Source of the DNA: Ornithinimicrobium cerasi
GTDB lineage: Bacteria > Actinomycetota > Actinomycetes > Actinomycetales > Dermatophilaceae
Length of the DNA: 64,000 bases
Reading direction: 5' to 3'
Assembly: GCF_003702705.1 (NCBI RefSeq)
Contig: NZ_QZMN01000007.1
Location: 62,001 to 126,000 of the forward strand
The translations under genes were made by a program, and so were the position numbers. Under the pieces are notes generated by a model that was given only the letters and a program-made list of their open reading frames with translations, was not told the DNA's origin and did not search any database. Below, piece by piece: positions 30,160-59,019 of this stretch. The stretch's first letter is position 1. Each line of letters opens with the position of its first letter.

Positions 30160-31023
30160 TCAGACGACGGGGGCGACGACGATCCCCACCGTGCCGGGCC
30201 CCGCGTGCACGCTCACCACCGGGTCGAGCTCGGTGAGGTCCGGGACCAGGCCGGTGCGCTTCTCGACCTCGCCGGCCAGCCGGGCGGCGGTCTCCTCCGC
30301 CGCGAGCTGCAGCACGGCCACCTGCACCTCGTGCCCCTCCGCCCGGGCCTCCTCGACGGCCTCGACGGCCCGCTCGACGAGCCGGGCGTGGGCCTTGGCC
30401 CGGGTCCGCACCTTCTCCACCGGGTGGACCTCGCCGTCCCGGATCGTCAGCAGCGGCTTGATGGCCAGCGCCGACCCGAGCAGGGCCTGGGCCAGGCCGA
30501 TCCGACCGCCCCGGCGCAGGTGCTCGAGCGTGTCGACGCAGAACCAGGTCCGGCTGGCCTCCGCCCGCCGGCGCACCACCGCGGCGACCTCGCCCGCCGT
30601 CGCCCCGGCGGCGGCCGCCTGCGCGCCGGCGCACACGGCATACCCCATCGCCATCCCGAGCACCCCGGAGTCCACCACCTCGACCTCCACCTCGCCGACG
30701 AGCTCGTCGCGGGCCAGCTCGGCCGCCTCGACGGTGCCGCTGACCTTGCCGGACAGGTGCACGGACACGACCGCCGACGCACCCGTGCGCGCCACGGCGT
30801 CGCGGTAGGCCGCGACGAGCTCCCCCGGCGAGGGCCGGGACGTCGACGCCCGGTCCTTGCCGCGCGACAGGATCTCGGCGACCTCGGAGGGGGTGATCTC
30901 CCGGGCCTGCACCGTGCCGCGCCCGGCGACCGTGACGTGCAGCGGGACGACGGTCACGCCCGCCTCCCGCGCCCTGGCGGGAGGCAGGCAGGCCGTGGTG
31001 TCCGTGACGACGTGGACGGTCAT
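30160..31023 (-). CDS. DegV-family fatty-acid-binding protein
   Basis: This 287-residue protein has the DegV fold: MTVHVVTDTTACLPPARARE at the N-terminus (family D-S-x2-D/C-L), TSRPSPGELVAAYRDAV (T-S-Q-P-[ST]-P motif) and VVDSGVLGMAMGYAVCAG in the middle (S-x2-x-G-x-G). Members bind fatty acids and, as FakB, deliver them to FakA for phosphorylation. No fakA gene is in the window. It lies 8 bases downstream of leuS and is likely transcribed with it. Confidence 0.9.
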   Translation of the reverse strand: MTVHVVTDTTACLPPARAREAGVTVVPLHVTVAGRGTVQAREITPSEVAEILSRGKDRASTSRPSPGELVAAYRDAVARTGASAVVSVHLSGKVSGTVEAAELARDELVGEVEVEVVDSGVLGMAMGYAVCAGAQAAAAGATAGEVAAVVRRRAEASRTWFCVDTLEHLRRGGRIGLAQALLGSALAIKPLLTIRDGEVHPVEKVRTRAKAHARLVERAVEAVEEARAEGHEVQVAVLQLAAEETAARLAGEVEKRTGLVPDLTELDPVVSVHAGPGTVGIVVAPVV

Positions 31024-31030
31024 CGCCGGG

Positions 31031-33967
<2,937 letters not shown>

Positions 33968-34021
33968 CATCTCGTCCTCGTCCTTCGTCTGCTCGTGCTC
34001 GTCGTGGGTGCCTCGGTGCAC

Positions 34022-34045
34022 AAAAAAGCCCCTCGGGCAGAGGGG
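34022..34045 (-). terminator. Intrinsic terminator of the leuS attenuator
   Basis: On the RNA, CCCCUC pairs with GAGGGG around a five-base loop, then C and six U (34022-34027). It lies 55 bases before the leuS start. It is the only U-rich intrinsic terminator of this classical type in the host part. Confidence 0.9.
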
Positions 34046-34069
34046 TCAGCCGCGCTGGGTGGTGCGTGG

Positions 34070-34108
34070 TCAGCGCGGCTGGACAAGGAGGAGCACGCAA
34101 CGGGTCAT
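34070..34108 (-). CDS. leuS leader peptide
   Basis: Twelve codons read MTRCVLLLVQPR, with CTC CTC CTT at positions 6-8 flanked by valines. TGA (34070-34072) falls within the first hairpin arm, as in classical amino-acid attenuators. The start is 9 bases from the -10 hexamer, so initiation is nearly leaderless. Confidence 0.75.
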   Translation of the reverse strand: MTRCVLLLVQPR

Positions 34109-34176
34109 GATCACCCGATGGTAGCGCACAGGGCGCCCGCCCCGGCCGGGGTGAGCGCCCTGTCGGCACTGCTGGT

Positions 34177-34195
34177 CCGGGACCCGAGGTCCCGG
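34177..34195 (-). terminator. Terminator downstream of rpsT
   Basis: A perfect 8-bp stem CCGGGACC/GGTCCCGG with a three-base loop begins 8 bases after the rpsT stop. No U-run follows, as usual in this genome. Confidence 0.65.
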
Positions 34196-34203
34196 CGATC
34201 GGC

Positions 34204-34622: not shown

Positions 34623-34689
34623 GCAGCGCCCCGGCCCCCCGCCCAAGTCGGCACCGGGCCGGCCGAGGCGCCGGCCCCGGGCACCGTCC

Positions 34690-35964
34690 TCACACGACGA
34701 CGCGCCTCAGCCCCAGACCCGACTCCCCGTCCGCCGAGGTGCGCACGGCGAGCACCTGGTGCAGCTGCATACCGTTGCGCTCGAAGTTCAGGCTCGAGCC
34801 GGCGAGGTAGAGGCCCCAGACCCGCGCCCGGCCGCGACCGGCCTCCGCGGCGCAGGCGTCCCAGTTGGCCGCGAGGTTCGCCGACCACGCGGCGCAGGTG
34901 CGGGCGTAGTGCTCCCGGAGGTTCTCGTGGTGACGCACCTCCAGCCCCGCGCGCTCGACCTGGGTGACGATCGTGCCGGACGCGCCGAGCTCGCCGTCGG
35001 GGAAGACGTAGTGATCCACGAACGCCCGCCGCGACATCCCGTCCTTGGTGCTCGTCGGCCAGGTGATGCAGTGGTTGAGCAGCATCCCGCCGTCGCGCAG
35101 GCGGTCGTGCAGGAAGCGGAAGTAGGCGGGGAAGTGCCGGACGCCGATGTGCTCGGTCAGACCGATCGAGGAGACGGCGTCGAAGCCGCGCTCGGTCACG
35201 TCCCGGTAGTCGCTGTGGCGGATCTCCGCCCGTCCGGCCAGGCCGGCCCGCTCGACCATCTCCTGCCCCCACGTCGCCTGCTGCCGCGACAGGGTGACCC
35301 CCAGCGCGGTGACGCCGTAGTGCTCGACGGCGTGCCGCACCATCCCGCCCCACCCGCAGCCGACGTCCAGCAGGCGCATACCCGGCCGGAGGCCCAGCTT
35401 GCGGCAGACCAGGTCGTGCTTGTGCGCCTGGGCCTCCTCGAGGCTGGCGCCGGGGTCGGGGTATGCCGCGCACGTGTAGGTCATCGAGGGACCCAGGACC
35501 ATCTCGTAGAACCGGTTGGACACGTCGTAGTGGTGGGCGATGGCGACGGCGTCGCGGCGCCGGCCGTGCCGTACCCCGTTGGCCAGGCGCCGCGTCCGCG
35601 AGGGGATCTCCTCCGGCGGCAGCTCGGGCAGGGAGGGCCGAAGCTGGCGCACGGCGGCGGCCACCCGGAGCGCGTCCTGGCCCCGCAGCCGGGTGGGTCG
35701 CACCTTGTCCCGCAGCAGGACCAGCTCGGGGTAGGGGTTGGCCTCCTCCATCCCGACGATCTCCAGGTCGTCCATGAGGTAGGCGCGGGCGAAGCCGAGC
35801 TCGCTGCTGGGAGAGGTGAGGAGGTGGTGCAGCGCCCGGGGGCTGCGCAGGCGCAGCACCCGGCCCGCAGGATCACCCGACGTCGACCCGTCGTAGGCCT
35901 CCACCCGCAGCCCGTCGACCGGCCCGGCGAGCGTCTCGAAGATCTCTGCCGCCGTCATCGTCAT
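34690..35964 (-). CDS. tmsB: Cyclopropane-fatty-acid-synthase-like methyltransferase (TmsB/BfaB-like)
   Basis: This 424-residue SAM-dependent methyltransferase belongs to the CFA synthase family. SAM motif: MRLLDVGCGWGGMVRHAVEH. Family motifs: HYDVSNRFYEMVLGPSMTYT (acyl-chain site), GVTLSRQQATWGQ and SSIGLTEHIGVRHFPAYF. Paired with an FAD protein by an ATGA overlap, it fits the actinobacterial 10-methylstearate (tuberculostearic acid) pathway, where it methylates oleoyl chains at C10 in phospholipids. The symbol is by pair context. Confidence 0.82.
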   Translation of the reverse strand: MTMTAAEIFETLAGPVDGLRVEAYDGSTSGDPAGRVLRLRSPRALHHLLTSPSSELGFARAYLMDDLEIVGMEEANPYPELVLLRDKVRPTRLRGQDALRVAAAVRQLRPSLPELPPEEIPSRTRRLANGVRHGRRRDAVAIAHHYDVSNRFYEMVLGPSMTYTCAAYPDPGASLEEAQAHKHDLVCRKLGLRPGMRLLDVGCGWGGMVRHAVEHYGVTALGVTLSRQQATWGQEMVERAGLAGRAEIRHSDYRDVTERGFDAVSSIGLTEHIGVRHFPAYFRFLHDRLRDGGMLLNHCITWPTSTKDGMSRRAFVDHYVFPDGELGASGTIVTQVERAGLEVRHHENLREHYARTCAAWSANLAANWDACAAEAGRGRARVWGLYLAGSSLNFERNGMQLHQVLAVRTSADGESGLGLRRVVV

Positions 35965-37385
35965 CGTCCTCGAACCGCCTTGTCGTAGAGGGTGGGCAGC
36001 CGGGCGCCGGGGTCGTAGGCGGCCTTGACCCGCGCGTAGACGTCGCCGCCGTAGAGCCGGTCGAAGGTGTCGCGGTCGTAGGTCGCCGTCGAGTACAGAC
36101 CCTTGTGCCCGCCGAGCTCGGTGACCTTGTCCTCGATCATCCGGTTGACGTCGCCGTCGCGGCCACCGGGCGCGATGTCCACGGCGGACCAGAAGCCCAC
36201 GTTGACGTAGTCCTCCCCCGGCCGCATCGGGTAGAGCGGCCAGACCCGGTCGTCGCGCAGCCGCACCGGGCACAGCCACAGCGGCTCGATCGGGACGGTC
36301 GCCAGGAACCAGCGCACGAACTCGGCCGTGCGCGCCAGCGGGATCTCGACGTCCTGGACGACCCGCTCCTGGTCCGGGCGACCGCGCCGGCGCCGGAGCT
36401 GACGCTGCACGTGGTAGCGCTGCTCGAGGGCCATGACCCTCCAGTAGACGTCGCTGCGCCGCCACCGCCGGGGCCATACCCGCCGCAGCCGTGGGTCCTG
36501 GGCGCCGAACGCTCGCGAGCACCAGAACCAGTCGGTGTCCCACCGCCACAGGTAGTCCTCGGCGGTGAGCAGGTCGGAGCGCCGGTGCTGGAGCGACCGG
36601 TAGTAGATCTGCTGACCGGTGTAGTCCGACGGGGTGCGCCCGCCCGCGTCCTCGGTCCACCACCCCAGGGTCAGGTAGGTCTCGGTCGCACCGAAGACCA
36701 CCCCGTCGAGGAAGTCGACCCGCTGCCCCTCGTGCTCGCCGGAGCCCATCACCGCGGCCACGACCGCGCAGGCCTCGTCGAGGTCGGCGAGCCGCACGTG
36801 GCGCAGCTCGACGAGGGGCGCGGTCCGCTCGAGCTCCACGACGAGCCCGAGGCAGTAGCCCAGGGTGCCGTAGGAGTTGGGCAGGGCGCGGAACAGGTCG
36901 GCGTGCTCGCCGTCCGGACGGGCGGTCACCACCCTGCCGTCACCGGTCAGCACGTCGGCCTCCAGGACCGACTCGTGCGGCAGCCCGCTGCGGAAGGACG
37001 TCGACTCGATGCCCAGGCCCACGACCGCGCCACCGAGGGTGATCGTGCGCAGCTGCGGCACGACGAGCGGCATCCGGCCGCGCGGGAGCAGCTCCTCGAC
37101 CAGCCGCTCGTAGGTGGACAGCCCGCCCACGAGCGCCGTCCCGGGACCTCCGCCCTCCCCCTCCGTCAGGTCGAGGACCCCCACCATCTCGGACAGGTCG
37201 AGCCGAGAGACGTCTCCCGCCCGGGCGCGGAAGAGGTTGCTCGTGCGCTTGGCCAACCGCACGGGCCGGTCGGCCGGCAGCGCGGCATACCTCGCCGCCA
37301 CCCGGTCCACGGCGTCCAGGTATGCCGCGGGCCGGCCGGCCCGTCCCTCACCGCTCTCGGGGTGCACGCGCCCCATCCTGCCCAC
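35961..37385 (-). CDS. tmsA: FAD-binding oxidoreductase (TmsA/BfaA-like)
   Basis: This 474-residue protein has a PCMH-type FAD-binding domain (VPQLRTITLGGAVVGLGIES, SVLEADVLTGDGRVVTARPD) and a long C-terminal domain rich in Trp/Tyr. It precedes the CFA-like methyltransferase with overlapping codons. In mycobacteria and related genera this enzyme reduces the 10-methylene intermediate to 10-methyl fatty acid. The fit of both proteins and their coupling make that role likely, though not proven by sequence alone. Confidence 0.8.
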   Translation of the reverse strand: MGRMGRVHPESGEGRAGRPAAYLDAVDRVAARYAALPADRPVRLAKRTSNLFRARAGDVSRLDLSEMVGVLDLTEGEGGGPGTALVGGLSTYERLVEELLPRGRMPLVVPQLRTITLGGAVVGLGIESTSFRSGLPHESVLEADVLTGDGRVVTARPDGEHADLFRALPNSYGTLGYCLGLVVELERTAPLVELRHVRLADLDEACAVVAAVMGSGEHEGQRVDFLDGVVFGATETYLTLGWWTEDAGGRTPSDYTGQQIYYRSLQHRRSDLLTAEDYLWRWDTDWFWCSRAFGAQDPRLRRVWPRRWRRSDVYWRVMALEQRYHVQRQLRRRRGRPDQERVVQDVEIPLARTAEFVRWFLATVPIEPLWLCPVRLRDDRVWPLYPMRPGEDYVNVGFWSAVDIAPGGRDGDVNRMIEDKVTELGGHKGLYSTATYDRDTFDRLYGGDVYARVKAAYDPGARLPTLYDKAVRGR

Positions 37386-42630: not shown

Positions 42631-43475
42631 GCCTCACCGTCCGGGACCACGCGGTACCGGCCGGTGTAGACGTTGAGGCTGCTCCCCCGGTTGAACCCCA
42701 CCAGGGTCATCCCGACCTCCTCCGCGAGCCGCGCCGCGAGCGAGGAGGGGGCCGACACGGCGGAGAGCACCGGGACCCCGGCCATCGCCGCCTTCTGCAC
42801 CAGCTCGAACGACGCCCGCCCGGACACCTGGAGCACGGCCCCGCGCAACGGCATACCGTGCTCGCGCAGCGCCCACCCCACCACCTTGTCCACGGCGTTG
42901 TGGCGCCCGACGTCCTCGCGCACGCAGGCCAGGTCCAGCCCGCCGTCGGTCGGGAGGAACAGCCCCGCGGCGTGGACCCCCCCGGTCCGGTCGAAGACCA
43001 GCTGCCTCTCGCGCAGCCGGTCAGGCAACGAGAGCAGCTGCGCCACAGGGTATGTCGTGGCGTCGACCCCAAGGTCATGCACGCCCTCGCGCCGCACGGC
43101 GTCGATGGACGCGGTCCCGCACACCCCGCACGAGCTCGACGTGTAGACGTGCCGTTCCAGGGACGGGTCCGGCGGGGTGACGCCGTCGGCGAGCGTGAGG
43201 TCGACGACGTTGTAGTCGCGCAGCCCGTCGGCCCCGATGCCCGAGCGGTAGTCGATCTGCGCGACGTCCGCCCAGCCCGCGAGCATCCCCTCCCCGTGGA
43301 GGAACCCGACGACGAGGTCGAAGTCGTCGCCGGGCGTGCGCATCGTGACCGACAGCGCCCGGCCGTTGACCCGCACCTCCAGCGGCTCCTCGCCGGCCAG
43401 GACGTCGGCGCGCTCGCGCACGTCGCCGCCGGCGGTGAGGCGGGTGACGCGTCGGCGTTGGGTGACCCGGACCAT
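42627..43475 (-). CDS. fdhD: Formate dehydrogenase accessory sulfurtransferase
   Basis: This 282-residue protein transfers sulfur from IscS-like donors to the molybdenum cofactor of formate dehydrogenase. The catalytic C-x2-C is SSSCGVCGT (C116, C119), and the family blocks DFDLVVGFLHGEG, VREDVGRHNAVDKVVG and VSGRASFELVQKAAM are all present. TACGCT lies 6 bases upstream of ATG 43475, so it is leaderless. No formate dehydrogenase structural gene lies in the window. Confidence 0.94.
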   Translation of the reverse strand: MVRVTQRRRVTRLTAGGDVRERADVLAGEEPLEVRVNGRALSVTMRTPGDDFDLVVGFLHGEGMLAGWADVAQIDYRSGIGADGLRDYNVVDLTLADGVTPPDPSLERHVYTSSSCGVCGTASIDAVRREGVHDLGVDATTYPVAQLLSLPDRLRERQLVFDRTGGVHAAGLFLPTDGGLDLACVREDVGRHNAVDKVVGWALREHGMPLRGAVLQVSGRASFELVQKAAMAGVPVLSAVSAPSSLAARLAEEVGMTLVGFNRGSSLNVYTGRYRVVPDGEA

Positions 43476-43505: not shown

Positions 43506-46193
43506 TCAGCGGTTGGGTATGCCGTCGGGGGCGCAGATGAAGTGCGCCACCAGGGCGGTCCAACCGGTCTGGTGCGAGGCACCGAGTCCGACGCCGGAGT
43601 CGCCGTCGAAGAACTCGCTGAAGGTCGGGTGGGCGTCCCAGAGCGGGCCGGAGGGGTGGTGCTGCGGTGTCGAGGGGCGCCGACCGTCCGGGCCCGGACG
43701 GAAGAGTCCGACCAGCCGCTGCTCCACCCGGCTCGCGACCTCCTCGATCGCGACCTCCTCACCCGAGCCGGTGGGGTACTCCACCGGCCGACCCACCCCG
43801 GCGCCGCGACCGTAGGTGCGCAGGGCGTCGGTGAGCAGGGCGTTGACCGGCAGCCACACCGGGCCGCGCCAGTTGGAGTTGCCCCCGAACATCCCCGAGT
43901 CGGACTCGCCCGGCACGTAGGCCAGGGACAGCTCCGATCCACCGATCCGCACCTGCACCCCGTCGCGGTGGGCGGCCGACAGCGAGCGCAGGCCGCCTGG
44001 CGAGAGGAACTCGGCCTCGTCGAGCATCCGCCGCACCACCGCCCGCCACTGGCGGCGATCCACCATGGACAGGGTCCGCAGGGAGTACCCGTCGTGGTTG
44101 GTGTGCAGCAGGGCGTCCCCCAGCTCGGGACGACGCCTGGTCCAGCCGTCGAAGAAGTCGGTGAGGTCGGGCAGCTCGTGGACCACCCAGTCCGGGACGA
44201 TAGCCACCGCCGACAGGGGAAGCAGGCCGACCATCGAGCGCACCGGCATGCGGTGCACGCCACAGTCCTCCGTGGTGAGGACGTCGTGGAAGAACTCGTC
44301 CTCCTCGTCCCACAGCCGGGCGTGGCCGCGGCCGAGGTCGTCCATCGCCTGCGCGATGGAGAGGAAGTGCACGAGGAACTTCGTGGCGATCTCGTCCCAG
44401 GCCGGGTCCCTGCGCGCCAGCTCCATGGCCATCCGCAGCATCTTCAGGCAGAACAGACCCATCCAGGCGGTGGCGTCGGCCTGCTCGAGCCGCTGCCCGT
44501 CCGGCAGGGGGTCGGACCGGTCGAAGAGGCCGATGTTGTCCAGCCCGAGGAAGCCCCCCTCGAAGACGTGGCTGCCGTCGGCGTCCTTGCGGTTGACCCA
44601 CCACGGGAAGTTCAGCAGCATCTTGAGCACGACCCGCTCCAGGAAGACCCGGTCGCGGGACCCGTCGATGCAGTAGACCTGCCAGGCGGCCCAGGGGTGC
44701 ACCGGCGGGTTGACGTCGGAGAAGTTCCACTCGTAGGCGGGCAGCTGGCCGTTGGGGTGCATCGACCACTCGCGGCACATGAGGAGCAGCTGCCACTTGG
44801 CGAAGGAGGGGTCCACGTGCGCGTAGGCCACGCAGTGGAAGGCCAGGTCCCAGGTGGCGAACCAGGGGTACTCCCACTCGTCCGGCATCGAGATGACCTC
44901 GGCGAAGTTGACGTGTCCCCAGTCGCTGTTGCGCTCGGTCCGCTCCGGGGGCGGCGGCGGCTGGCCCGGGTCGCCCGCCAGCCACCGGGTGACGTCGTAG
45001 AGGTAGAGCTGCTTGCACCACTGCAGCCCGGCGAAGGCCCGACGGGCGACGAGGGCGTCCTCCGCATCGGTGCCCTCGGGCAGGACGGCGGCGTAGAACT
45101 CGTCGGCCTCGGCCCGCCGCAGGGCGAGCAGCTCGTCGGCGTCGGGGGCGTCGGGCGCCGGCGCCTCCCCTTCGGTCAGGCGCAGCCGCACGGTGACGCT
45201 CTCCCCCGGGGGGACCGCGTCGAAGACCCACCAGAACGCCATCTTCGTCCCCCGCTCCTCGGGGTTGCAGGCGTCGGGCTGCCCGTGCACCACCGCGCGT
45301 CCCACCGAGTCCTTCGGGTATGACGTGTGCTCGGGGGGCACCGCGTCCTCGCCGTAGAGGGCTGCCAGGTTGGTGTCGTTCTCGCAGAACAGGGTTCGCG
45401 GTGATCCGTCGGCCGTCACGGTGACCGGGCCCAGCGTGGCGTGCTCGGCCCGGACCACGACGGTGCCGTCCGCGGCCGCCGTGTCGTCGCGCCACAGCAC
45501 AGGGCGTGAGTCGTCCAGCCCCCAGGACCAGGTGTTGCGGAACCACACCTGCGGCAGCAGGTGCAGCGGCGCCGCCTCCGGCCCGTGGTTGGTCGCGGTG
45601 ATCTCGACGACAAGGTCCCCCGGCGCGGCCTTGGCGTGGGTGACGACGACGTCGAAGAAGCGGTCCTCGGCGAGCACCCCGGTGTCGGCCAGCTCGTGCT
45701 CGGGGTCGCGCACGCCTCGCTCGCCGTTGACGCGCAGCAGCTCCTCGTAGGGGTAGGCAGCCTGCGGGTAGCGGTAGAGCGCGGAGGCGTAGGAGTGGGT
45801 GGGCAGCCCCTCCAGGTGCCACCAGTACTCCTTGACGTCCTCACCGTGGTTGCCCTGAGGGTTGGTCAGCCCGAACAACCGCTCCTTGAGCCGGTCGTCC
45901 TGCCCGTTCCACATGGCCACGGCGACGTTGAGGTGCCCCTCGAGGTCGCAGAGACCGGCGATCCCGTCCTCGCCCCAGCGGTAGGCGCGCAGGTGCGCGT
46001 GGTCGAAGGGGAGGTGTTCCCAGGCGTTGCCGTCGGCGGAGTAGTCCTCGCGGACCGTCCCCCACTGCCGCGCCGAGACGTACGGGCCCCACCGCCGCCA
46101 GGGTGCCCTCGAGTCGTCAGCGTCGGCGAGGCGGCCGTGCTCGGCGGTCGTCGGGCCGGGGGGCGCGGGGGTATGGGGATCCACGCGCCTCAC
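43506..46193 (-). CDS. GH63-like glucosidase (mannosylglycerate hydrolase-like family)
   Basis: This 895-residue protein belongs to the large (alpha/alpha)6 glycosidase group (GH63, MGH1-like). Conserved stretches: [20 protein letters not shown] and [20 protein letters not shown] at the N-terminal beta domain, [40 protein letters not shown] and [20 protein letters not shown] in the catalytic domain, and [20 protein letters not shown] near the C-terminus. Substrate is likely an alpha-glucoside such as glucosylglycerate or mannosylglycerate, unproven. No signal peptide, so cytoplasmic. Confidence 0.88.
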
Positions 46194-47758: not shown

Positions 47759-47987
47759 GCAGTCCTTCGGTCGGTGGGTCCCGGGGTATGCCGTCCCCGG
47801 CGTCTCCCCAGGGTCTCACCCTTCAACGCGCGGGGCGAGTGATTTCTGCCCCACGCCCGTCCCCGTGCCGCTCGCACTCCTGTCCTGTGAGCGCCACCTC
47901 TCGACCTCTACAGAACGACGGGGGTGACGAGAGGGCGACAGCAGTCGCCCAGCAGAGACGCAGGGGACCCGGGTCCCCTCCAGGTGG
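47759..47987. promoter_or_regulatory. hflX upstream region with 18-bp palindrome
   Basis: No gene is visible. A perfect palindrome AGGGGACCC-GGGTCCCCT occupies 47962-47979, 8 bases downstream of the AbiEi/DUF559-type gene, and could be a terminator or an operator. One GGTATGCCG word lies at 47785-47793, close to the hflX start. Confidence 0.4.
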
Positions 47988-49858: not shown

Positions 49859-50797
49859 TCACCCCGCCGCGTCGGCCACCACCGCGAGGGCCCGCTCGAC
49901 CAGGTCGGAGGCGTCGTGCTCCAGCCAGACCACCCGCGGGTCGGGGCCGAACCACCGCTCCTGCCGCCGGGCGAGGCGCCTCGTCGCCACCACGGTGTCG
50001 GCCACCGCTTCTTCCTGGGTCAGCCCGCCGTCGAGCTGGCGCAGGGCCTGGGCGTAGCCCACCGCGCGCGAGGCCGTCCGCCCCTCGCGCAGCCCCTCAG
50101 CCTCCAGCCCGCGCACCTCGTCCAGCAACCCGTCGCGCCACATGCCCTCCGTCCGGGCCGCGATCCTGGCGTCCAGCACCGTCCGGTCGGCGCGCAGCCC
50201 CACCGTCACCGTCGGGACCACGTGCTCGCGGGTCGGCAGGGTGGCGCTGAACGGTCTCCCGGTCAGCTCGATGACCTCCAGCGCCCGCACCACCCGGCGT
50301 CCGTTGCGCGGCTCGATCCCCGCCGCGGCGACGGGGTCGCGCTCCTGCAGCTGGGCATACAGGCGTTCCACCCCCGCCCGGGCCAGCTCGGCCTCCCAGG
50401 CCGCCCGCACGCCCGGGTCGGTCGGCGGGATCTCCAGCCGGTCCAGCAGCGCCCGGACGTACAGCCCCGACCCGCCCACCACCACCGGCACCGCCCCCCG
50501 GGCGCGGACCGCGGCCAGGTCGGCACGCGCCGACGCCTGGTATGCCGCGACGCTCGCCTCCTCGCGCACCGTCAGGACGTCCAGCTGGTGGTGCCGCACC
50601 CCCTGCCGCTCGTCGGGGGTGAGCTTGGCGGTGCCGACGTCCATCCCGCGGTACAGCTGGGACGCGTCGGCGTTGACGACCTCCCCGCCGAGGCGCAGGG
50701 CCAGGGCGACGCCCAGGTCGGACTTCCCGGTGGCCGTCGCCCCGACCACCGCGACGACCGCGGGCAGCCCGTCCCCGGTTGGCAGGTCGGCGCGCAC
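49859..50797 (-). CDS. miaA: tRNA dimethylallyltransferase
   Basis: This 312-residue enzyme adds the dimethylallyl group to A37 of tRNAs reading U-codons. P-loop GATATGKS at residues 19-26, then DASQLYRGMDVGTAKLTPDE, VPVVVGGSGLYVRALLDRLE and a C-terminal RRLARRQERWFGPDPRVVWL. GTG 50797 is supported because upstream sequence is the divergent promoter region and CACACT lies 6 bases away. A longer frame overlapping the divergent gene is not credible. Confidence 0.95.
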   Translation of the reverse strand: MRADLPTGDGLPAVVAVVGATATGKSDLGVALALRLGGEVVNADASQLYRGMDVGTAKLTPDERQGVRHHQLDVLTVREEASVAAYQASARADLAAVRARGAVPVVVGGSGLYVRALLDRLEIPPTDPGVRAAWEAELARAGVERLYAQLQERDPVAAAGIEPRNGRRVVRALEVIELTGRPFSATLPTREHVVPTVTVGLRADRTVLDARIAARTEGMWRDGLLDEVRGLEAEGLREGRTASRAVGYAQALRQLDGGLTQEEAVADTVVATRRLARRQERWFGPDPRVVWLEHDASDLVERALAVVADAAG

Positions 50798-51019: not shown

Positions 51020-51063
51020 TCGGAGCCCCGCACGCGGTGCCGGGCACGGCATACCCTGACCGC

Positions 51064-51903
51064 ATGCCGGACACCCCCATCGAGGTCCACATCATCGCGG
51101 ACTCGACCGGCGACACCGCCGCACGCGTCGCCCGCGCCGCCGCCGCCCAGTACGTCGGGTACGACGTCCGGATCATCCGTCACCCCCGGCAGAGCACCCC
51201 GGACGGGCTGCACGACGCGTTCGCGCGCATGCACCCCGACCGGGCCCGCACCGTGGTCTTCTCGACCGTCGTCGACGAGGGCCTGCGACACCTCGTCGCG
51301 CAGCTGTGCCTGGAGCGCGGCCTGCCCCACGCCGACCTGCTCGACCCGGCGGTCAACGCGCTGCGCGAGGCGACCGGGCAGGACCCCTCCCGCGTGGTCA
51401 CCCCGGTCGGCGTCAGCGAGGACTACTTCAAGCGGGTGCAGGCGATGGAGTTCTCGATCGCCAACGACGACGGCAACCTCTCCAACCACCTGCGGGAGGC
51501 GGACATCGTGCTCATCGGGGTGAGCCGGTCCGGCAAGACGCCGCTGGCGATGTACCTCGGCTACCTGGGGTACAAGACCGCCAACATCCCGCTGGTCCCG
51601 GGCGTCCCCGTGACCCCCGAGCTGCGCGACGTGCAGCGGTGGAAGATCGTGGGGCTGACGATCGACCCGGAGCGGCTGGTGCAGATCCGCACCCGCCGCG
51701 TGCGCGCCATGGGCTCCCGAGCCGTCCAGCGCGACGGTTACACCGACATCGTCACGATCTTCGACGAGCTGGACCAGGTCTCGGGGATCCAGCGCAGCCT
51801 CGGCTGCCCCGTCATCGACACCACGGAGCTGGCCCTCGAGGAGGCCGCCGGACGGGTCATCGAGGTGGTCCAACGGCGCCGGGAGGCGGCCTCGGGGCGC
51901 TGA
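51064..51903 (+). CDS. ppsR: Pyruvate,phosphate dikinase regulatory protein
   Basis: This 279-residue bifunctional kinase/pyrophosphorylase controls PPDK by ADP-dependent phosphorylation of its active-site Thr and phosphate-dependent removal. The DUF299 pattern is present: EVHIIADSTGDTAARVARAA, RTVVFSTVVDEGLRHLVAQL, the P-loop GVSRSGKT (residues 152-159) and GYKTANIPLVPGVPVTPEL. It lies immediately upstream of ppdK. TACCCT lies exactly 6 bases before ATG 51064 (leaderless). That hexamer partly overlaps a CGGCATACC word (51047-51055). Confidence 0.95.
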   Translation: MPDTPIEVHIIADSTGDTAARVARAAAAQYVGYDVRIIRHPRQSTPDGLHDAFARMHPDRARTVVFSTVVDEGLRHLVAQLCLERGLPHADLLDPAVNALREATGQDPSRVVTPVGVSEDYFKRVQAMEFSIANDDGNLSNHLREADIVLIGVSRSGKTPLAMYLGYLGYKTANIPLVPGVPVTPELRDVQRWKIVGLTIDPERLVQIRTRRVRAMGSRAVQRDGYTDIVTIFDELDQVSGIQRSLGCPVIDTTELALEEAAGRVIEVVQRRREAASGR

Positions 51904-51975: not shown

Positions 51976-54632
51976 GCGAGAGCACCACGGTGAGATACCT
52001 CTACGACATGTCGGAGGGTGACGCCAGCATGCGCACCGTCCTGGGCGGCAAGGGCGCCAACCTCGCGGAGATGAAGCGCCTCGGCATCCCCGTCCCGGAC
52101 GGCTTCACGGTGAGCACCGCGGCCTGCGTCGCGACGATGGGCAACCACGGCGAGTGGCCCGCCTCGCTCTGGGACGACACGCTCGAGGCCCTGGCCCGCC
52201 TGGAGGAGCGCACCGGTCGCACCCTCGGCGGGGCCACCAGGCCGCTGCTCCTGTCCGTGCGCTCCGGCGCCGTGCACTCGATGCCCGGCATGATGGACAC
52301 CATCCTCAACCTCGGTATCGGGGACGAGACCGTCGAGTCGCTCGGGGCCGAGTCCGAGAACCCGCGCTTCGCCTGGGACTCCTACCGCCGCTTCCTGCAG
52401 ATGTACGGCGACGTCGTGGAGGGGGTGCCGCCGCACGTCTACGAGGACGAGCTGACCAGCCTCAAGAAGCGCCGCGGGGTGGAGCAGGACACCGACCTGA
52501 CGACCGAGGACCTCAAGGAGCTGGTGGCGACCTTCAAGGAGGTCTCGCGCCGCGAGCTGGGGCGTGACCTGCCCAGCGATCCCCGCGAGCAGCTGCGCGG
52601 GGCGATCGACGCCGTGTTCAAGTCGTGGGACACCCCCCGCGCCCGGGTCTACCGCAAGGCCAACGGCATACCCGACGACCTGGGGACGGCCGTCAACGTC
52701 ATGCAGATGGTGTTCGGCAACCGTGGCGAGACCTCCGCCACCGGCGTGTGCTTCACCCGCAACCCCTCGACCGGCGGCAAGGAGCTCTACGGCGAGTTCC
52801 TCGTCAACGCCCAGGGCGAGGACGTCGTCGCCGGGATCCGCACGCCGCGGGAGCTCTCGGAGATGGAGGAGGTGCTCCCGCAGGCCTACGGCGAGCTCAT
52901 CCGCACGATGCACGAGCTCGAGGCGCACTACAAGGACATGCAGGACATCGAGTTCACCGTCGAGGAGGGCACCCTCTACCTCCTGCAGACGCGCAGCGGC
53001 AAGCGCACCGCGGCGGCCGCGCTGAAGGTCGCCCGCGACATGGTCGAGGAGGGGGTGCTCACGCGGGAGGAGGCCCTGCGTCGCGTCGAGCCCGCGCAGC
53101 TGGACCAGCTGCTCCACCCGGCCATCGACCCCGACCACGACCGGACCCCGCTGACCAGGGGCCTGCCCGCCTCCCCCGGGGCTGCGGTCGGCGCCGTCGT
53201 CTTCGACGCGGACACCGCCGCCGAGCGCGGACAGACCGAGCCGGTCGTCCTGGTCCGCTACGAGACGACGCCCGACGACATCCACGGCGTGATCGTGGCC
53301 AAGGGCGTGCTGACCGCGCACGGCGGGATGACCTCCCACGCGGCCGTCGTCGCCCGCGGCATGGGCCGCCCGTGCGTGGCCGGGGCCCAGGGCATCCGTA
53401 TCAACACGGCCGAGAAGACGCTGACCATCGGCGCCAGGGTGTTCGGCGAGGGCGACGTCATCACCCTCGACGGGACGACCGGCGACGTCTACGGCGAGGC
53501 CCTCGAGCTGGTGCCGCCGCAGGTCAACGAGGACTTCGGCGCCATCGTGGGCTGGGCGGACGAGATCCGCCGCCTGGGCGTGCGCGCCAACGCCGACACC
53601 GGCGAGGACGCCGCGAAGGCGCGTGAGCTCGGCGCCGAGGGCATCGGGCTGTGCCGCACGGAGCACATGTTCATGGCGGCCGACCGGCTGCCGGCCGTCC
53701 GGGAGATGATCCTGGCCGGATCCGACGAGGAGCGCGCGGAGGCCCTGGAGAAGATCCTGCCCATGCAGCAGGAGGACTTCGAGGGGATCTTCTCGGCGAT
53801 GAAGGGGCTCCCGGTCACGGTGCGTCTCCTCGACCCCCCGTTGCACGAGTTTCTCCCGGACCTCGTGGAGCAGTCGCTGCTGGTCCAGCGTCTCGACCTG
53901 ACCGGTGGGGACGCCGACGAGCTGTCCGAGGCCCGCACCCTGCTGTCCCAGGTCAAGCGCCTGCACGAGCAGAACCCGATGCTGGGCACGCGCGGCTGCC
54001 GGCTGGCCATGCTCTACCCCGAGATCCCCGAGATGCAGACGCGAGCCATCGTCCGGGCGGCGCTGGCGGTCAAGGAGCGCGAGGGCGAGACCGCGACCGT
54101 GGAGATCATGATCCCGCTCGTCGCCTACGCCAGGGAGCTGCAGGTGCAGCGGCAGATCGTCGAGCAGACGGTCGCGGACGAGCTCGAGGCCGCGGGTGAG
54201 CAGATGGAGGTCCACGTCGGCACGATGATCGAGCTGCCGCGCGCGGCCATCGTCGCCGACCAGATCGCCGAGCACGCCGACTTCTTCTCCTTCGGCACCA
54301 ACGACCTGACGCAGACCGGGATCGGCATCAGCCGCGACGACGCCGAGGGCGGGTTCCTCTCCGCCTACGTCTCCGACGAGGTCATCCCCCACAACCCGTT
54401 CGAGTCGATCGACAAGGACGGGGTCGGTGGCCTGGTGCAGATCGGCGCCGAGCGGGGCCGTTCCGCCAAGCCCGGTCTGAAGCTGGGTGTCTGCGGCGAG
54501 CACGGCGGCGACCCGGCCTCGATCGAGCTGTTCGACGCGCTGGGGCTCGACTACGTCTCCTGCTCCCCGTTCCGGGTGCCGATCGCCCGCTTCGCCGCGG
54601 CCCGGTCCGTCCTGGACGCCCAGGGGTCGTGA
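51972..54632 (+). CDS. ppdK: Pyruvate, phosphate dikinase
   Basis: This 886-residue enzyme interconverts pyruvate, ATP and phosphate with PEP, AMP and pyrophosphate. The ATP-grasp N-terminus starts RYLYDMSEGDASMRTVLGGK and holds GGKGANLAEM. The phosphohistidine is H456 in GGMTSHAAVV, where T454 is the PpsR target. The PEP-binding TIM barrel includes GLCRTEHMF and the catalytic Cys841 in GVCGEHGG. The GAGGAG-rich upstream region serves as ribosome site, within a short leader ORF. With ppsR it gives reversible control of the PEP-pyruvate node. Confidence 0.97.
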   Translation: MSESTTVRYLYDMSEGDASMRTVLGGKGANLAEMKRLGIPVPDGFTVSTAACVATMGNHGEWPASLWDDTLEALARLEERTGRTLGGATRPLLLSVRSGAVHSMPGMMDTILNLGIGDETVESLGAESENPRFAWDSYRRFLQMYGDVVEGVPPHVYEDELTSLKKRRGVEQDTDLTTEDLKELVATFKEVSRRELGRDLPSDPREQLRGAIDAVFKSWDTPRARVYRKANGIPDDLGTAVNVMQMVFGNRGETSATGVCFTRNPSTGGKELYGEFLVNAQGEDVVAGIRTPRELSEMEEVLPQAYGELIRTMHELEAHYKDMQDIEFTVEEGTLYLLQTRSGKRTAAAALKVARDMVEEGVLTREEALRRVEPAQLDQLLHPAIDPDHDRTPLTRGLPASPGAAVGAVVFDADTAAERGQTEPVVLVRYETTPDDIHGVIVAKGVLTAHGGMTSHAAVVARGMGRPCVAGAQGIRINTAEKTLTIGARVFGEGDVITLDGTTGDVYGEALELVPPQVNEDFGAIVGWADEIRRLGVRANADTGEDAAKARELGAEGIGLCRTEHMFMAADRLPAVREMILAGSDEERAEALEKILPMQQEDFEGIFSAMKGLPVTVRLLDPPLHEFLPDLVEQSLLVQRLDLTGGDADELSEARTLLSQVKRLHEQNPMLGTRGCRLAMLYPEIPEMQTRAIVRAALAVKEREGETATVEIMIPLVAYARELQVQRQIVEQTVADELEAAGEQMEVHVGTMIELPRAAIVADQIAEHADFFSFGTNDLTQTGIGISRDDAEGGFLSAYVSDEVIPHNPFESIDKDGVGGLVQIGAERGRSAKPGLKLGVCGEHGGDPASIELFDALGLDYVSCSPFRVPIARFAAARSVLDAQGS

Positions 54633-55441
54633 CGCAGGCGCTCCCGGCCGGGGGTCCGAAGGCGCTCTACGCGGACCTCGCCTCCCTCGGCGGCTTCTTC
54701 GTGCTCGCAGCACCGCCGCCGCCGGCCTCGGACGCGGTGCCCTGGGCCGAGGTGCTCTCCCCCGCCGCGCTCACGGCGCGGTTCGCCGCCGTCCGCACCG
54801 CGCTGGCCGGGAGCACCGGGTTGGCCGAGGATGCCGTCGACCTCAAGGTCGCGGTCTCGGCGACCCAGGTGGGCCTCGCCTCACGGCTGTGGTCGGTGGC
54901 GCTGGCCGCGGCGGTCCTGCACCGCTGGGTCCCCGACCTGTCGGCCTCCTCGGTCGTCGCCAGCCCGGTCCACCGGGGCGGCGTGCCGCTGGGGCTGGCC
55001 CGTCCCGGGGCGGGGTATGCCGTCGCCGACCTCGGTCATGCCGTCACCGTCCTCGCGCACACGGTCGTGGACAGCTCGCTGGCCGGGCTGCACCTGGCCT
55101 GCGCCGCCGTGGGCCGCACGCCGACGCGCGTGCTCGTGAGCAACAGCACATCCGCCCTGGTCGGGGCGGCCAGGGTGCTGTCGGGGCACCGTCCCGACGC
55201 CGCCGCGGACGCCTGGACCCTGGTGCGGCTCCTGCTCGACCACCCTGCCGTCGCGTCCGGCGGCAGCATGGTGCCGAGGTCCGACCTCGACGAGCGGGTG
55301 GGTGGTGCGATGGAGCACGCCGACGAGGCCTTCCTGCGCACCGGGTGCTGCGTGTTCTACCGGCTCCCGGGGCACGGCCTGTGCCCCGACTGCGTCCTCG
55401 CGCCGGACCGGCCCCAGGACGTCACCGGCCCCGACCACTGA
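54629..55441 (+). CDS. FhuF-like (2Fe-2S) protein
   Basis: This 270-residue protein has an N-terminal domain of unknown fold and a C-terminal C-C-x10-C-x2-C site (GCCVFYRLPGHGLCPDCVL), the 2Fe-2S ligand arrangement of FhuF-type ferric siderophore reductases. HRGGVPLGLARPGAGYAVAD and CAAVGRTPTRVLVSNSTSAL lie in the middle. It starts at GTG 54629 within the ppdK stop (GTGA), so translation is coupled to ppdK, an unusual metabolic pairing. No siderophore transport genes are near. Confidence 0.8.
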   Translation: MTQALPAGGPKALYADLASLGGFFVLAAPPPPASDAVPWAEVLSPAALTARFAAVRTALAGSTGLAEDAVDLKVAVSATQVGLASRLWSVALAAAVLHRWVPDLSASSVVASPVHRGGVPLGLARPGAGYAVADLGHAVTVLAHTVVDSSLAGLHLACAAVGRTPTRVLVSNSTSALVGAARVLSGHRPDAAADAWTLVRLLLDHPAVASGGSMVPRSDLDERVGGAMEHADEAFLRTGCCVFYRLPGHGLCPDCVLAPDRPQDVTGPDH

Positions 55442-55465
55442 CCCTCTCGGGTCACCTGGGCCTCC

Positions 55466-55487
55466 CCCCGGGACCGACGGTCCGGGT
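55466..55487. terminator. Bidirectional hairpin between fhuF-like and GT2 genes
   Basis: Arms around GGACC (55471-55475) and GGTCC (55479-55483) with loop GAC extend with one mismatch through CC/GG pairs. It lies between convergent genes. Confidence 0.5.
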
Positions 55488-55498
55488 CCGGAGCCTCC

Positions 55499-56341
55499 TC
55501 AGGCGGGAGGCTGGGTCGGGGGCCGCTGCTCACCCGGGTCCACGGCACGCGCGTGCCCGCGCCGGCGCAGCGCCTCGTCGAGGGTGGTGCGGTCGGTGGC
55601 GAAGCGGACGAGCTGCTCCCGCCCGCCGATGCTGCGCCGGTGGCGCAGCGCGAACGCGACCCGGGCCGGGGCGGCCCAGGGACTGAAGACGTGGTTGAGC
55701 ACCACGGCGCGGGCGTGCAGGTCGGCGCCGCCCCACCGGCTCCCGGAGCTGGTCGGCGGGTGCACCCCGAAGACGTAGGGGACGGCATACCCTCGGAGTC
55801 CCGCGCGGAGCAGCTCGGCGATGAAGAGGTACTCGTCACCGAGGTAGGTCTCCACCCCGGCCCCGAAGCGCTCGTCGAAGCGCAGCCCCGTCTGCCGCAC
55901 CTGCGCGACGTCGACGAGCATCTCGTAGGTCGCCGCCTTGGCGGAGTTGGTCCGGGTGAGACGGGTGGGCCGGTCGGAGCGGTACCGCTTGCGGAGGCGC
56001 CCCTCCGGGTCGACGGCCCGGCCCAGCGCGAGGGCGGCACCGCTCCGGCGGAGGTGGTCGACCGCTGCCAGCACCCCGTCGGTGCGGATCTCGACGTCGT
56101 CGTCGCAGAAGAGCAGGTAGCGACGACGGCTGTTCTCGATCGCCGCGTTGCGGCTGCGGGCGACCCCCCGCCCGGGGACCGGGACCACCCGGTCGACCCC
56201 CTCGGGCACCTGCAGGCCCGCCGTGGGCCCCTGCACGCAGACGAGGACCTCGATCCGCCGCTCCGCGGGCGGGCGGATGTCGGCGACCCGCTCCGCGAGG
56301 CTGGAGTAGGCGACGGTGAGCTCGGCGGCCAGCGCCCTCAC
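55499..56341 (-). CDS. Family 2 glycosyltransferase
   Basis: This 280-residue GT-A enzyme has the nucleotide-sugar site in YLLFCDDDVEIRTDGVLAAV (DDD metal motif) and a second acidic motif in FGAGVETYLGDEYLFIAELL (ED-like). GVARSRNAAIENSRRRYL is typical of rhamnosyl- or galactofuranosyl-like GT2. GTG 56341 overlaps the stop of the membrane protein gene (GTGA), so it is coupled. No signal peptide; likely works at the inner membrane face in surface polysaccharide synthesis. Confidence 0.86.
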   Translation of the reverse strand: MRALAAELTVAYSSLAERVADIRPPAERRIEVLVCVQGPTAGLQVPEGVDRVVPVPGRGVARSRNAAIENSRRRYLLFCDDDVEIRTDGVLAAVDHLRRSGAALALGRAVDPEGRLRKRYRSDRPTRLTRTNSAKAATYEMLVDVAQVRQTGLRFDERFGAGVETYLGDEYLFIAELLRAGLRGYAVPYVFGVHPPTSSGSRWGGADLHARAVVLNHVFSPWAAPARVAFALRHRRSIGGREQLVRFATDRTTLDEALRRRGHARAVDPGEQRPPTQPPA

Positions 56342-57123
56342 CTCACCTCCACGAGGTCGGTGCGGGCGGCCGCCCGGGCGAAGCGCATGATGCCCGCGGA
56401 GAAGGTGCCGAGCTGGCCGTAGAGGAGGCGCAGGCCGAGGAAGAAGACGATGGCGTCGGTGCTGGCGACCTGTCCGCCGAGGGCCCGGACCAGGACCACG
56501 ACGAGCACGATCGCCATCCCGACACTCCCCAGCAGCGCACCGAGCTCGGCCACCCGGATCCGACCCCCGACCCGGTCGTTGATCGGCGTCGACCCGGGCT
56601 TCGAGCCCATGGCGACGTAGGACTGCTGGCGCACCAGCTCCCTGGCGTAGAGGCTCCCCTGCCAGGCGAGCACGACCACGACGACCAGGGCGTTGACGCC
56701 GGCCACCCACGGGTCCAGGAAGGGGAAGAGCAGGCTGAAGGCCAGCACCTGCACGATCGAGACGAGCACCCCGGACAGCTCCAGGGCCAGCGCCCAGTCC
56801 CAGCTCTGGCGGCTGGGGCTGCGCGTGGACTCCAGCTGCTCGAAGCGTCGTCGGAAGACCGCGACACGGACGATCCGCACCAGGTGGTGCATGCCCCGGG
56901 CGGCCCCGAGCAGCACGAAGAACAGCACGACCAGCCAGGTCAGCGAGTCGTCCCCCTCGCGGAACCGGTCAGGCCCGTCGATGACGAGGTCCGAGAACAT
57001 CCGGATGACGAGCATCTCGACCACCGGGACGGCAGCCATGACGAGGACCAGCCCGACGACCTCGGCCCGGGCGGCACGCGAGGGGAAGAGGCGGCGCAGG
57101 GCGCGGGCCAGGTGACCCAGCAC
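56338..57123 (-). CDS. Polytopic membrane protein of the polysaccharide operon
   Basis: This 261-residue protein has about five transmembrane helices: 23-42 (VGLVLVMAAVPVVEMLVIRM), 63-80 (WLVVLFFVLLGAARGMHHLV), 115-160 (two helices around LSGVLVSIVQVLAFSLLFPF), 198-215 and 228-242. Topology resembles the membrane half of ABC exporters without a nucleotide-binding domain. No ATPase gene is adjacent. The function is unknown; context between glycosyltransferases suggests glycan or lipid-linked sugar transport. Confidence 0.75.
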   Translation of the reverse strand: MLGHLARALRRLFPSRAARAEVVGLVLVMAAVPVVEMLVIRMFSDLVIDGPDRFREGDDSLTWLVVLFFVLLGAARGMHHLVRIVRVAVFRRRFEQLESTRSPSRQSWDWALALELSGVLVSIVQVLAFSLLFPFLDPWVAGVNALVVVVVLAWQGSLYARELVRQQSYVAMGSKPGSTPINDRVGGRIRVAELGALLGSVGMAIVLVVVLVRALGGQVASTDAIVFFLGLRLLYGQLGTFSAGIMRFARAAARTDLVEVR

Positions 57124-57132
57124 CGTCGTCCC

Positions 57133-59019
57133 TCAGACGTCCTCGAGGAAGGCCGCGACGCCCTCGCGCACGGCCAGCTCGATGTCGTCGAGGACCGCCG
57201 GGGAGATCTGCTCGGTGGCGGTCAGGCTGTCGAGATCCACGCGGCGCAGGTCGAACCCGACGAGCGTGGGCTCGTGCACGGTGGCCAGCCCCACGCCGCG
57301 GGAGTAGTCACCGTACTTCACGCCGGTGCCGTGGACGGCGCCCTCCAGACCCTCGAAGCCGATGAGCGCGCACGGTATGCCGTAGCTGTGGCAGGCGATC
57401 ATCACGTGCATCGCGCTGGTCACGACCGAGTCGTACTGGTTGAGCCTGCGCACGAAGTCCTCGATGTCACCGGGGTGCGACATCTGCACCCCGGTCTCGT
57501 CCATGTCCTCGGGCAGGGCCAGCGGGACGTTGGCGTGCTTGAAGTGACGCACCAGCAGACGGCGGCCGTTGGTCGCGCCGCGCTCGACGGGCAGGATCCG
57601 CGACAGGAGGGCGCCCGGGTCGCCGAAGGACTCGACGTCCGGACCGCCGCTGTCGCGGAGAAGCTGGGCGGTGACGGGCCCACGGACGGAGATGTAGCGG
57701 GCCTTGGGGTCGAGCTCGATGTCGGTGCTGCTCACCCCGGTTCCGACGACGATGGAGCGGGGCATGACGAAGCGGCCGATCGACCCGACGGAGACCAGGT
57801 GGGTGGACTGCGTCGGCGCCGTCGGCGGCACGTAGGTCACCGAGCGCCCGGACACCTGGCTCACGACGAGGGGGCTGAGCCAGTCGCCGAAGTTGCCGGG
57901 GAACGGGCGGGCCCACCAGGTCAGCCGGACCGGGTCGTGGCTGGTCCCGGGCGCCAGCGTCGCGTAGTGGCCGAACGCGTCGGCGGCCTGCTTGGCCGCG
58001 TTCTCCCCCGGGGTCAGGACCCCGCTGGACTGGAGCCGGTCGTAGGCGGCGTAGACGGCCGTGAGGTCACCACGCTGCGAGGCCCCGATCATGTGACGCA
58101 CGAGCCGGGCGCGCTGGGCGGTGGGGCTGCCGCCCTGACCCACCGCGCCGCCACGGGTCAGCACGTGGGTGAGCCCGAGCTGGTCGGCGATCCGCCGGGC
58201 CGGGCGGCGGACGGTGGGGGGCAGGACCCGCTCCACGTTCTTGGCCCCGCGCAGGGCCGCCCGCAGCGGCGTGCGGGGCGCGACGGACGTGGTGCTGCTG
58301 CGACCGTCGATGCTCTTGTGCTGCACGACCTTGTGCTTGAACTCCTCGACGTTCCCGCTCGAACCGAAGGAGAAGAAGGGCACCACACCGGACTCGACGT
58401 TGGCCTTGCTCAGCACAGCGGCGCTGGGGAGCACCTGGAAGGAGAGTCGTTCCGCGTTGGCCCGCCAGGACTCCTCGAAGAAGTAGTCGTCGGTGGCCTT
58501 GATCGTCGCGTCCTGCTCGAAGCGGTGGGCGTCGGCGATGAAACGGCGCGCTGCCGCCGTGATGGCGATGCCGAAGAAGCACGGCTCCCAGAAGCGGGTG
58601 CGGTTGGCGTAACCGATCGTCAACGGGCTGCTGAAGCCCCGCTGGAAGCCCACGATGTCAGCCGTGAAGTCGGCCACCGAGGCCGGCAGCGACAGGAGCG
58701 AGCAGTCGACGTCGATCCAGAAGACCTTCTTGTCGGGGTGCCGGTCGCAGGCCTCGGCCAGGATGCCGATCTTGCGGCGCGTCATGTCGGCCCAGTCCGC
58801 GCCCTCCGGCTTGTGGATCTCCTCGAGCTCGTGGGCGACCCCGAGGCGGTCCAGGGTCGTCCGCAGGGTGGCGGCGTGCCCACGGTAGTAGTCGTCGTCG
58901 GTGTAGAAGGAGCACACCACGATGTCGTCGCGCCCGGGGGCGGGAGCGCCGTCGGTCTCGGCCGTCCCGACGACGACCCCGGGGGCCGTGGTCAGGTCAC
59001 TGTCGGGAGAAGAGGTCAT
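57133..59019 (-). CDS. GT-A glycosyltransferase fused to polysaccharide pyruvyltransferase
   Basis: This 628-residue two-domain protein has an N-terminal half (to about 290) with a GT-A/GT8-like core: VVCSFYTDDDYYRGHAATLR, then VFWIDVDCSLLSLPASVADF (DVD metal site). The C-terminal half (about 330-628) is polysaccharide pyruvyltransferase-like: FGDWLSPLVVSQVSGRSVTY, IVVGTGVSSTDIELD, ISVRGPVTAQLLRDSG, DPGALLSRILP and YDSVVTSAMHVMIACHSYGI. It could add a sugar and then a pyruvate ketal to the same chain. The start is uncertain (59019 or 59034); TACAGT at 59128 implies a leader of about 90 bases. Confidence 0.82.
   Translation of the reverse strand: MTSSPDSDLTTAPGVVVGTAETDGAPAPGRDDIVVCSFYTDDDYYRGHAATLRTTLDRLGVAHELEEIHKPEGADWADMTRRKIGILAEACDRHPDKKVFWIDVDCSLLSLPASVADFTADIVGFQRGFSSPLTIGYANRTRFWEPCFFGIAITAAARRFIADAHRFEQDATIKATDDYFFEESWRANAERLSFQVLPSAAVLSKANVESGVVPFFSFGSSGNVEEFKHKVVQHKSIDGRSSTTSVAPRTPLRAALRGAKNVERVLPPTVRRPARRIADQLGLTHVLTRGGAVGQGGSPTAQRARLVRHMIGASQRGDLTAVYAAYDRLQSSGVLTPGENAAKQAADAFGHYATLAPGTSHDPVRLTWWARPFPGNFGDWLSPLVVSQVSGRSVTYVPPTAPTQSTHLVSVGSIGRFVMPRSIVVGTGVSSTDIELDPKARYISVRGPVTAQLLRDSGGPDVESFGDPGALLSRILPVERGATNGRRLLVRHFKHANVPLALPEDMDETGVQMSHPGDIEDFVRRLNQYDSVVTSAMHVMIACHSYGIPCALIGFEGLEGAVHGTGVKYGDYSRGVGLATVHEPTLVGFDLRRVDLDSLTATEQISPAVLDDIELAVREGVAAFLEDV

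Follow-up and report, generated by a model that had tools for sequence, protein, structure and literature searches.

A putative DNA uptake sequence with dialects in a family of actinobacteria and its possible link to a Tad pilus

The subject of this work is a nine-letter word, GGTATGCCG, which is strongly enriched in a 64-kb stretch of DNA from Ornithinimicrobium cerasi (contig NZ_QZMN01000007.1, positions 62,001 to 126,000; in the following the window) and in the 3.83-Mb genome (87 contigs) from which it was taken. We suggest that this word, with an optional T after it and with the core GTATGCCG, is probably a DNA uptake sequence (DUS) that serves a competence system with a Tad pilus in this actinobacterial family. 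The suggestion builds on the enrichment throughout the genome, the equal use of both strands, the lack of polarity, the occurrence in several reading frames, the scarcity in mobile DNA, the existence of dialects among relatives and the association with a gene of the transformation pilus. The pattern is that of the DUS of Neisseriaceae and of the uptake signal sequences (USS) of Pasteurellaceae, and we regard the word as a putative member of this class. An uptake role had already been raised as worth testing in a preliminary description of the window, and it is the best supported reading. The hint which had been seen in a comEC gene close by is, however, no evidence, as comEC is present in the family regardless of the word and the copy of this genome is disrupted by a prophage.

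The word in the window and in its genome

The window contains exactly 14 exact copies of GGTATGCCG, eight on the forward and six on the reverse strand, between positions 30636 and 57382. By chance 0.27 copies are expected (100 dinucleotide shuffles of the window, standard deviation 0.45, maximum 1). In a sample of 438 kb from the same chromosome 156 copies were observed and 4.5 were expected, and the whole genome holds 556 + 521 = 1077 copies on the two strands against 2 + 5 = 7 of the reversed word. All 14 occurrences of the octamer GGTATGCC in the window extend to the nine-letter word; in the sample the octamer is found 157 times. Variants with one deviating base are far rarer (the commonest 31 times in the sample). 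The base after the word is preferentially T or C, then G, and the core is GTATGCCG. When octamers were ranked in six word-positive genomes (defined below), the first place was taken in all six by GTATGCCG or an octamer overlapping it.

Much of this had been read correctly from the letters alone in the preliminary description, namely the number, strands and range of the copies, the expectation of less than one copy and the extension of every octamer. The G+C content, estimated there at about 72%, is 72.7% when counted, the near-matches at 34771 and 43050 are found in the sequence, and Pfam agrees with the gene names leuS, fdhD, miaA, ppdK and ppsR. The genome-wide count which it proposed likewise lies far above expectation.

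Concerning position, 117 of the 156 sampled copies lie in predicted genes and 39 between genes, where 18 were expected; the intergenic figure is approximate because the gene calls, based on codon-position G+C, are crude. Within genes the word occurs on both gene strands and in all three frames. It is not palindromic, and in its flanks we saw no longer conserved unit apart from preferred bases at two or three adjacent positions. Pooled over the 113 word-positive genomes the strands carry 102,534 and 102,862 copies of GTATGCCG. The copies of the window are as follows.

30636..30644, reverse strand, copy 1, in a degV-family gene
32818..32826, forward strand, copy 2, in leuS
35460..35468, forward strand, copy 3, in a CMAS-family methyltransferase gene
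37283..37291, reverse strand, copy 4, in a FAD-binding oxidase gene (tmsA in the preliminary description)
37319..37327, forward strand, copy 5, in the oxidase gene of copy 4 and inverted relative to copy 4
42849..42857, reverse strand, copy 6, in fdhD
43516..43524, forward strand, copy 7, at the 3' end of the predicted gene 43506-46193
47785..47793, forward strand, copy 8, between predicted genes
50539..50547, forward strand, copy 9, in miaA
51047..51055, reverse strand, copy 10, at the very start of, or just before, a ppsR-like gene predicted at 51037-51903
52664..52672, reverse strand, copy 11, in ppdK
55014..55022, forward strand, copy 12, in the predicted gene 54629-55441
55783..55791, reverse strand, copy 13, in a glycosyltransferase gene
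57374..57382, forward strand, copy 14, in a polysaccharide pyruvyl transferase gene

The core word, its dialects and its replacement in relatives

We counted GTATGCCG in 187 genomes of the family from 53 genera. NCBI places Serinicoccus in the Ornithinimicrobiaceae and Terrabacter in the Intrasporangiaceae; for the counts both are grouped here as one family. A genome is called word-positive if it has no fewer than 80 copies per Mb and exceeds the reversed word 2.3-fold or more, a threshold set after the counts were seen. On this basis 113 genomes count as positive, 68 as negative and 6 as intermediate. Of the genera, 27 contain positive genomes and no negative ones, 4 contain both, and 22 lack positive genomes. 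The density in positive genomes has a median of 436 per Mb and reaches 1356 per Mb. Outside the family no genome in a class-wide sample of 394 exceeds about 51 per Mb, as computed from the listed counts, and the clearest hint above 100 copies is G498 (170 GTATGCCG vs 27). Among 80 named loci, 13 hold 5 to 19 copies of GTATGCCG in about 12-20 kb. Three of these word-carrying loci are from metagenome-assembled genomes, the rest from Serinicoccus, Ornithinimicrobium, Pedococcus, Knoellia and Terrabacter.

Single species at background level occur within word-rich genera. G023, G066 and G141 have 50, 37 and 19 copies, their congeners hundreds to thousands. As side observations, the tad-1 pilus locus (see below) of G141 has an insert, those of G023 and G066 look intact, and comEC of G023 runs off the end of its contig.

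The word varies between lineages. The base before the core is preferentially G in Ornithinimicrobium and Serinicoccus and C in Terrabacter and Knoellia. In Microbacterium we found the word GGATGCCG, which is GTATGCCG with one base changed; at one later position, identical for the two words, either T or A is accepted (GTATG[T/A]CG, GGATG[T/A]CG). In 12 named Microbacterium loci (224 kb) GGATGCCG occurs 165 times in 123-125 distinct contexts and the reversed word 10 times. Eight of these loci have at least 11 copies, the other four 2 to 6. G437, which belongs to another family, by inference Microbacteriaceae, has 23 copies vs 1 in a stretch of 16 kb.

A different word, CGAAGGGGG, is found in g52 and g61 genomes without GTATGCCG. 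Nine loci (140.8 kb; 6 of 16 g52 genomes and all 3 of g61) contain 72 copies, in coding and intergenic DNA and on either strand. It is not confined to the surroundings of tad genes; elsewhere, G114 has 16 copies in 32 kb and G150 has 5 in 12 kb. CGAAGGGGG is the top nine-letter word of the g52 set, and the O. cerasi genome has just 6 copies in 400 kb. The counts of GGATGCCG and CGAAGGGGG refer to the fetched loci. The loci concerned are these.

Rich in GGATGCCG, up to 25 copies per 20 kb: L196, L198, L205, L227, L232, L238, L241, L246 and L332 (eight from Microbacterium, and G437)
Microbacterium without strong enrichment of GGATGCCG: L208, L233, L239, L248
Enriched in CGAAGGGGG: L173, L174, L288-L292, L295, L296, L329-L331

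Searches for replacement words in g2, g3, g74, g57, G023, G066 and G141, with 20-192 kb each, gave none that is convincing. We do not claim the candidate words in Demequina, Brevibacterium, Isoptericola and Promicromonospora, for which 2 to 5 orthologous loci each were at hand. In G034 (L057-L060), GTATGACG and GGATGCCG exceed their reversed controls alongside GTATGCCG, and a second enriched word, CTGGCCGTA, occurs 16 times where 0.6 are expected.

Mobile DNA, competence genes and the proposed mechanism

The left part of the window is prophage. The preliminary description saw a prophage of 26 kb; the element is in fact about 40 kb long and sits inside comEC. It covers 47.8-88.1 kb of contig C66 (40.3 kb; L087, L088), and only its last 26 kb lie in the window.

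1..26165, forward strand, right-hand 26 kb of the 40-kb prophage in comEC, with terminase, minor tail protein and other phage genes and without GTATGCCG
26174..27739, forward strand, 3' part of comEC, with the Competence domain from about position 30 of its hidden Markov model (HMM) and a metallo-beta-lactamase domain

Accordingly comEC (PF03772) matches as two pieces 40 kb apart. ComEC is split near residue 279, and the upstream comEA is whole. At the left end of the prophage a serine-recombinase gene (Resolvase and Recombinase domains) follows directly after the 5' fragment of comEC. G002 and G018 carry prophages at the same ComEC residue, and the aligning parts of these elements are 67-81% identical (the G018 element was compared only in part). 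Since comEC is split, we infer that in the lysogenic state the bacterium probably cannot be transformed, short of a precise excision of the phage.

The prophage of O. cerasi has no copy of GTATGCCG in its 40.3 kb, and its flanks have 18 in 50.7 kb; at the flank density of the core word an empty prophage has a probability of about 6e-7. The sampled inner parts of the G002 and G018 prophages have 2 copies in 30 kb and 2 in 24.9 kb. The claim of the preliminary description that the word is absent from the prophage holds for positions 1-26000 of the window, but it should be read as absence of enrichment, as shuffling gives just about 0.1-0.2 copies of GGTATGCCG for this part by chance. The comparison of word density in prophage and chromosome, which it had also proposed, thus finds the prophage not enriched. 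A similar picture is seen at six tad-1 loci with inserted or replaced DNA, where the foreign part has 2 words in 50.1 kb and the remainder 22 in 40.4 kb (p = 2.5e-6; boundaries drawn by us from gene matches, L173 counted with CGAAGGGGG, and L169 and L298, which have no word at all, left out of the sum).

Mobile elements have repeatedly entered tad-1 at one site, the 3' end of tadC just before flp (L169, L300, L182, L234, L173 and L298), and two of these elements carry a serine recombinase beside tadC. Examples are as follows.

L169, 10531-11886, tadC insertion site
L300, 4909-6144, tadC insertion site

After comEC, tadC looks like another competence gene that serves as an attachment site. For other bacteria, mobile elements inserted in competence genes, comEC among them, are described and explained as intragenomic conflict (PMC4774983). 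As a separate observation, comEC of G015, in which the word is abundant, matches only HMM positions 1-110 in a frame of 679 residues and may be truncated or altered.

Which genes could form the uptake machine? For Micrococcus luteus it is reported that deletion of any open reading frame of tad-1 and tad-2 but one, or of comEC, abolishes transformation, with polar effects possible (PMC4322843), and that a point mutation in a FtsK/SpoIIIE gene beside tad-1 lowers it (PMC8467076). By gene order and neighbours, the Flp-pilus locus studied here appears to be the counterpart of M. luteus tad-1. A FtsK/SpoIIIE-type gene adjoins tad-1 here too, and the closest named matches of the O. cerasi tad-1 Flp gene are from Serinicoccus and Ornithinimicrobium. 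ComEA, recognized by SLBB or HHH_3/helix-hairpin-helix domains, adjoins comEC in the three genomes checked (O. cerasi, G011 and the word-negative G032).

One gene of the pilus gave an association with the word. The minor pilin TadE2 of tad-1 is without a match in 17 of the 187 genomes and has a weak one in 6, with the cut between weak and present (E = 1e-20) chosen after the lists were seen. When only genomes of 90% completeness or more are considered, 12 of 62 word-negative ones lack TadE2 or match it weakly, compared with 3 of 96 word-positive and 1 of 6 intermediate ones (Fisher p = 0.0013 for negative against positive, uncorrected for phylogeny). The structural model of TadE2 is pilin-like, with a long N-terminal helix and a small head with three strands (predicted local distance difference test 93); two cysteines are invariant in 47 aligned sequences, and Foldseek gave no match to the model at E <= 0.001. 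TadE2 would be only one candidate for the receptor among the tad-1 and tad-2 pilins and ComEA.

Other genes were rejected. The presence of comEC cannot explain the word because it is near-universal, and neither Tad secretion in general (T2SSF in 184 of 187 genomes) nor TadB of tad-2 discriminates. A type IVa pilus was discarded as the machine, as PilM gives two weak fragmentary matches in 37 family genomes. A C-terminal motif of TadE2 differing between word classes was not counted because too few lineages are available.

We propose the following steps. The competence machine would consist of the tad-1 and tad-2 Flp-pilus loci together with ComEA and ComEC. A receptor at its surface would bind DNA with the word better than other DNA. 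Because the imported fragments would recombine with the chromosome, copies born by mutation would preferentially spread and be kept where the reading frame or an intergenic position tolerates them. In some relatives the word may have drifted into another (GGATGCCG in Microbacterium) or been replaced (CGAAGGGGG in g52 and g61), and lineages which lost the machine may have lost the word by decay. With somewhat less confidence than for the word itself, we find it likely from the genomic pattern that sequence-specific uptake evolved on a Tad/Flp pilus in Gram-positive actinobacteria, spanning two or more families of the same order, that its dialects drifted (GTATGCCG, GGATGCCG) and the word was fully replaced at least once (CGAAGGGGG), and that prophages and other elements in comEC and tadC switch the system off.

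Several observations weigh against a DNA uptake sequence of a Tad pilus. comEC is matched in 181 of the 187 genomes with or without the word, and so is a tad-2-like TadB (also 181 of 187, weak matches being possibly paralogues). The Fisher test ignores kinship, 8 genera account for the 12 TadE2 absences, and the limits for word density and for a weak TadE2 match were both picked after viewing the data. TadE2 is retained by 50 of the 62 near-complete word-negative genomes. The word-positive and near-complete G026, G130 and G131 have lost tad-1, so that the proposal needs a recent loss; the remnants that lie beside other genes, pieces of tadE3 (G026), of tadA and tadE3 (G130) and of tadA (G131), are as expected of one. 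In the loci fetched for tad-1 genes, tad-1 is broken about equally often in both groups, in 4 of 25 word-negative loci and, clearly, in 2 of 18 word-positive loci, with one more partially. Three word-positive genomes have a comEC split by a prophage. None of the tad-1 proteins clearly follows the word once phylogeny is allowed for: mean residuals of same-word and different-word pairs do not go beyond about 0.4 standard deviations, and the widest gap between word classes, that of flp for GTATGCCG against CGAAGGGGG, amounts to about 0.6. Finally, there is no excess of close inverted pairs (of 6 close pairs, against 5 expected, 3 are inverted).

Other explanations and known systems

The word could instead be the target of a chromosome-maintenance protein, that is a nucleoid-organising, segregation or Chi-like recombination factor. 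Its spread over the whole chromosome and its scarcity in newly arrived DNA fit such a role. Chi and KOPS (FtsK orienting polar sequences) are, however, usually polar, and a search for replication polarity of GTATGCCG in 400 kb of G011 (20 stretches along a single contig) found none. As judged from GC skew, the G-rich strand carries 105 copies and the opposite strand 120, which leaves no Chi-like or KOPS-like polarity. A housekeeping word would also not be expected to fall to background in G023, G066 and G141 within word-rich genera, nor to be exchanged for an unrelated word in two genera. We therefore consider a maintenance target unlikely.

A methylation mark or a restriction-modification target kept numerous, as discussed for the cyanobacterial HIP1, appears more improbable still. 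HIP1 is indeed linked to orphan methyltransferases (PMC4390886). All three words found here are non-palindromic 8-9-mers, however, and the association we see is with a pilus gene. Moreover, restriction targets are usually avoided and not enriched. Codon or compositional bias, or dispersal within a repeat family, is contradicted by the counts and has hardly any chance of being right: although the commonest coding frames of the word read Tyr-Ala or Ala-Tyr, an order-3 Markov model expects about one sixteenth of the count (11.3 against 184, about 16-fold), there are few copies of the reversed word, the word itself lies in varying frames and on both strands, and no longer flanking unit is conserved.

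If the words are indeed uptake sequences, they would constitute a third and independent case of uptake specificity, one from a different phylum that uses another pilus and shows clear dialects, and the evolution of such specificity would become testable by comparison. For many actinobacteria, in a number of which natural transformation is to our knowledge unstudied, they would be a genomic sign of transformation and a practical hint for making these organisms genetically tractable. We found no earlier description of these words or of actinobacterial uptake sequences in a literature search which excluded subscription journals and preprints and could miss a mention within a text. A 2025 paper names only Neisseriaceae and Pasteurellaceae as known to select DNA by short enriched motifs (PMC12616744). 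The pattern described here looks like such a tag for self-recognition in DNA uptake, so far known from these two very different families.

With the DUS of Neisseriaceae our case shares a short word in thousands of copies and dialects among relatives, eight of which are described there as barriers (PMC3630211), as well as a distribution that marks mobile elements (PMC7371117). Phylum and envelope differ, the words are unrelated, and the machine here would be of the Flp/Tad type, none of the 37 family genomes tested having a convincing PilM. In Neisseria frequent close inverted pairs of the DUS act as terminators, whereas such pairs are not enriched here. The receptor there is the minor pilin ComP; here the tad-1 and tad-2 pilins and ComEA are candidates for this role. 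A complete change of the word inside one family is a further difference.

The USS of Pasteurellaceae is likewise a short enriched motif with divergent dialect groups, and its reported 200-800 copies per Mb overlap with the densities of our positive genomes (PMC12616744). Host, word and machine are again different, the word described here being found in Gram-positive bacteria and unrelated in sequence. The Haemophilus-type motif (Hin-USS) has extended AT-rich flanks, which are missing here. HIP1 resembles the present words as a single over-represented 8-mer across a large group of genomes (PMC4390886). Unlike HIP1, which is palindromic and linked to methyltransferases, they are non-palindromic, come in dialects and are associated with a competence-pilus gene. 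Chi, KOPS and AIMS (architecture imparting sequences) are polar relative to replication, and GTATGCCG is not. What these signals have in common with our words is that they are short and over-represented (PMC8022716, PMC5993296).

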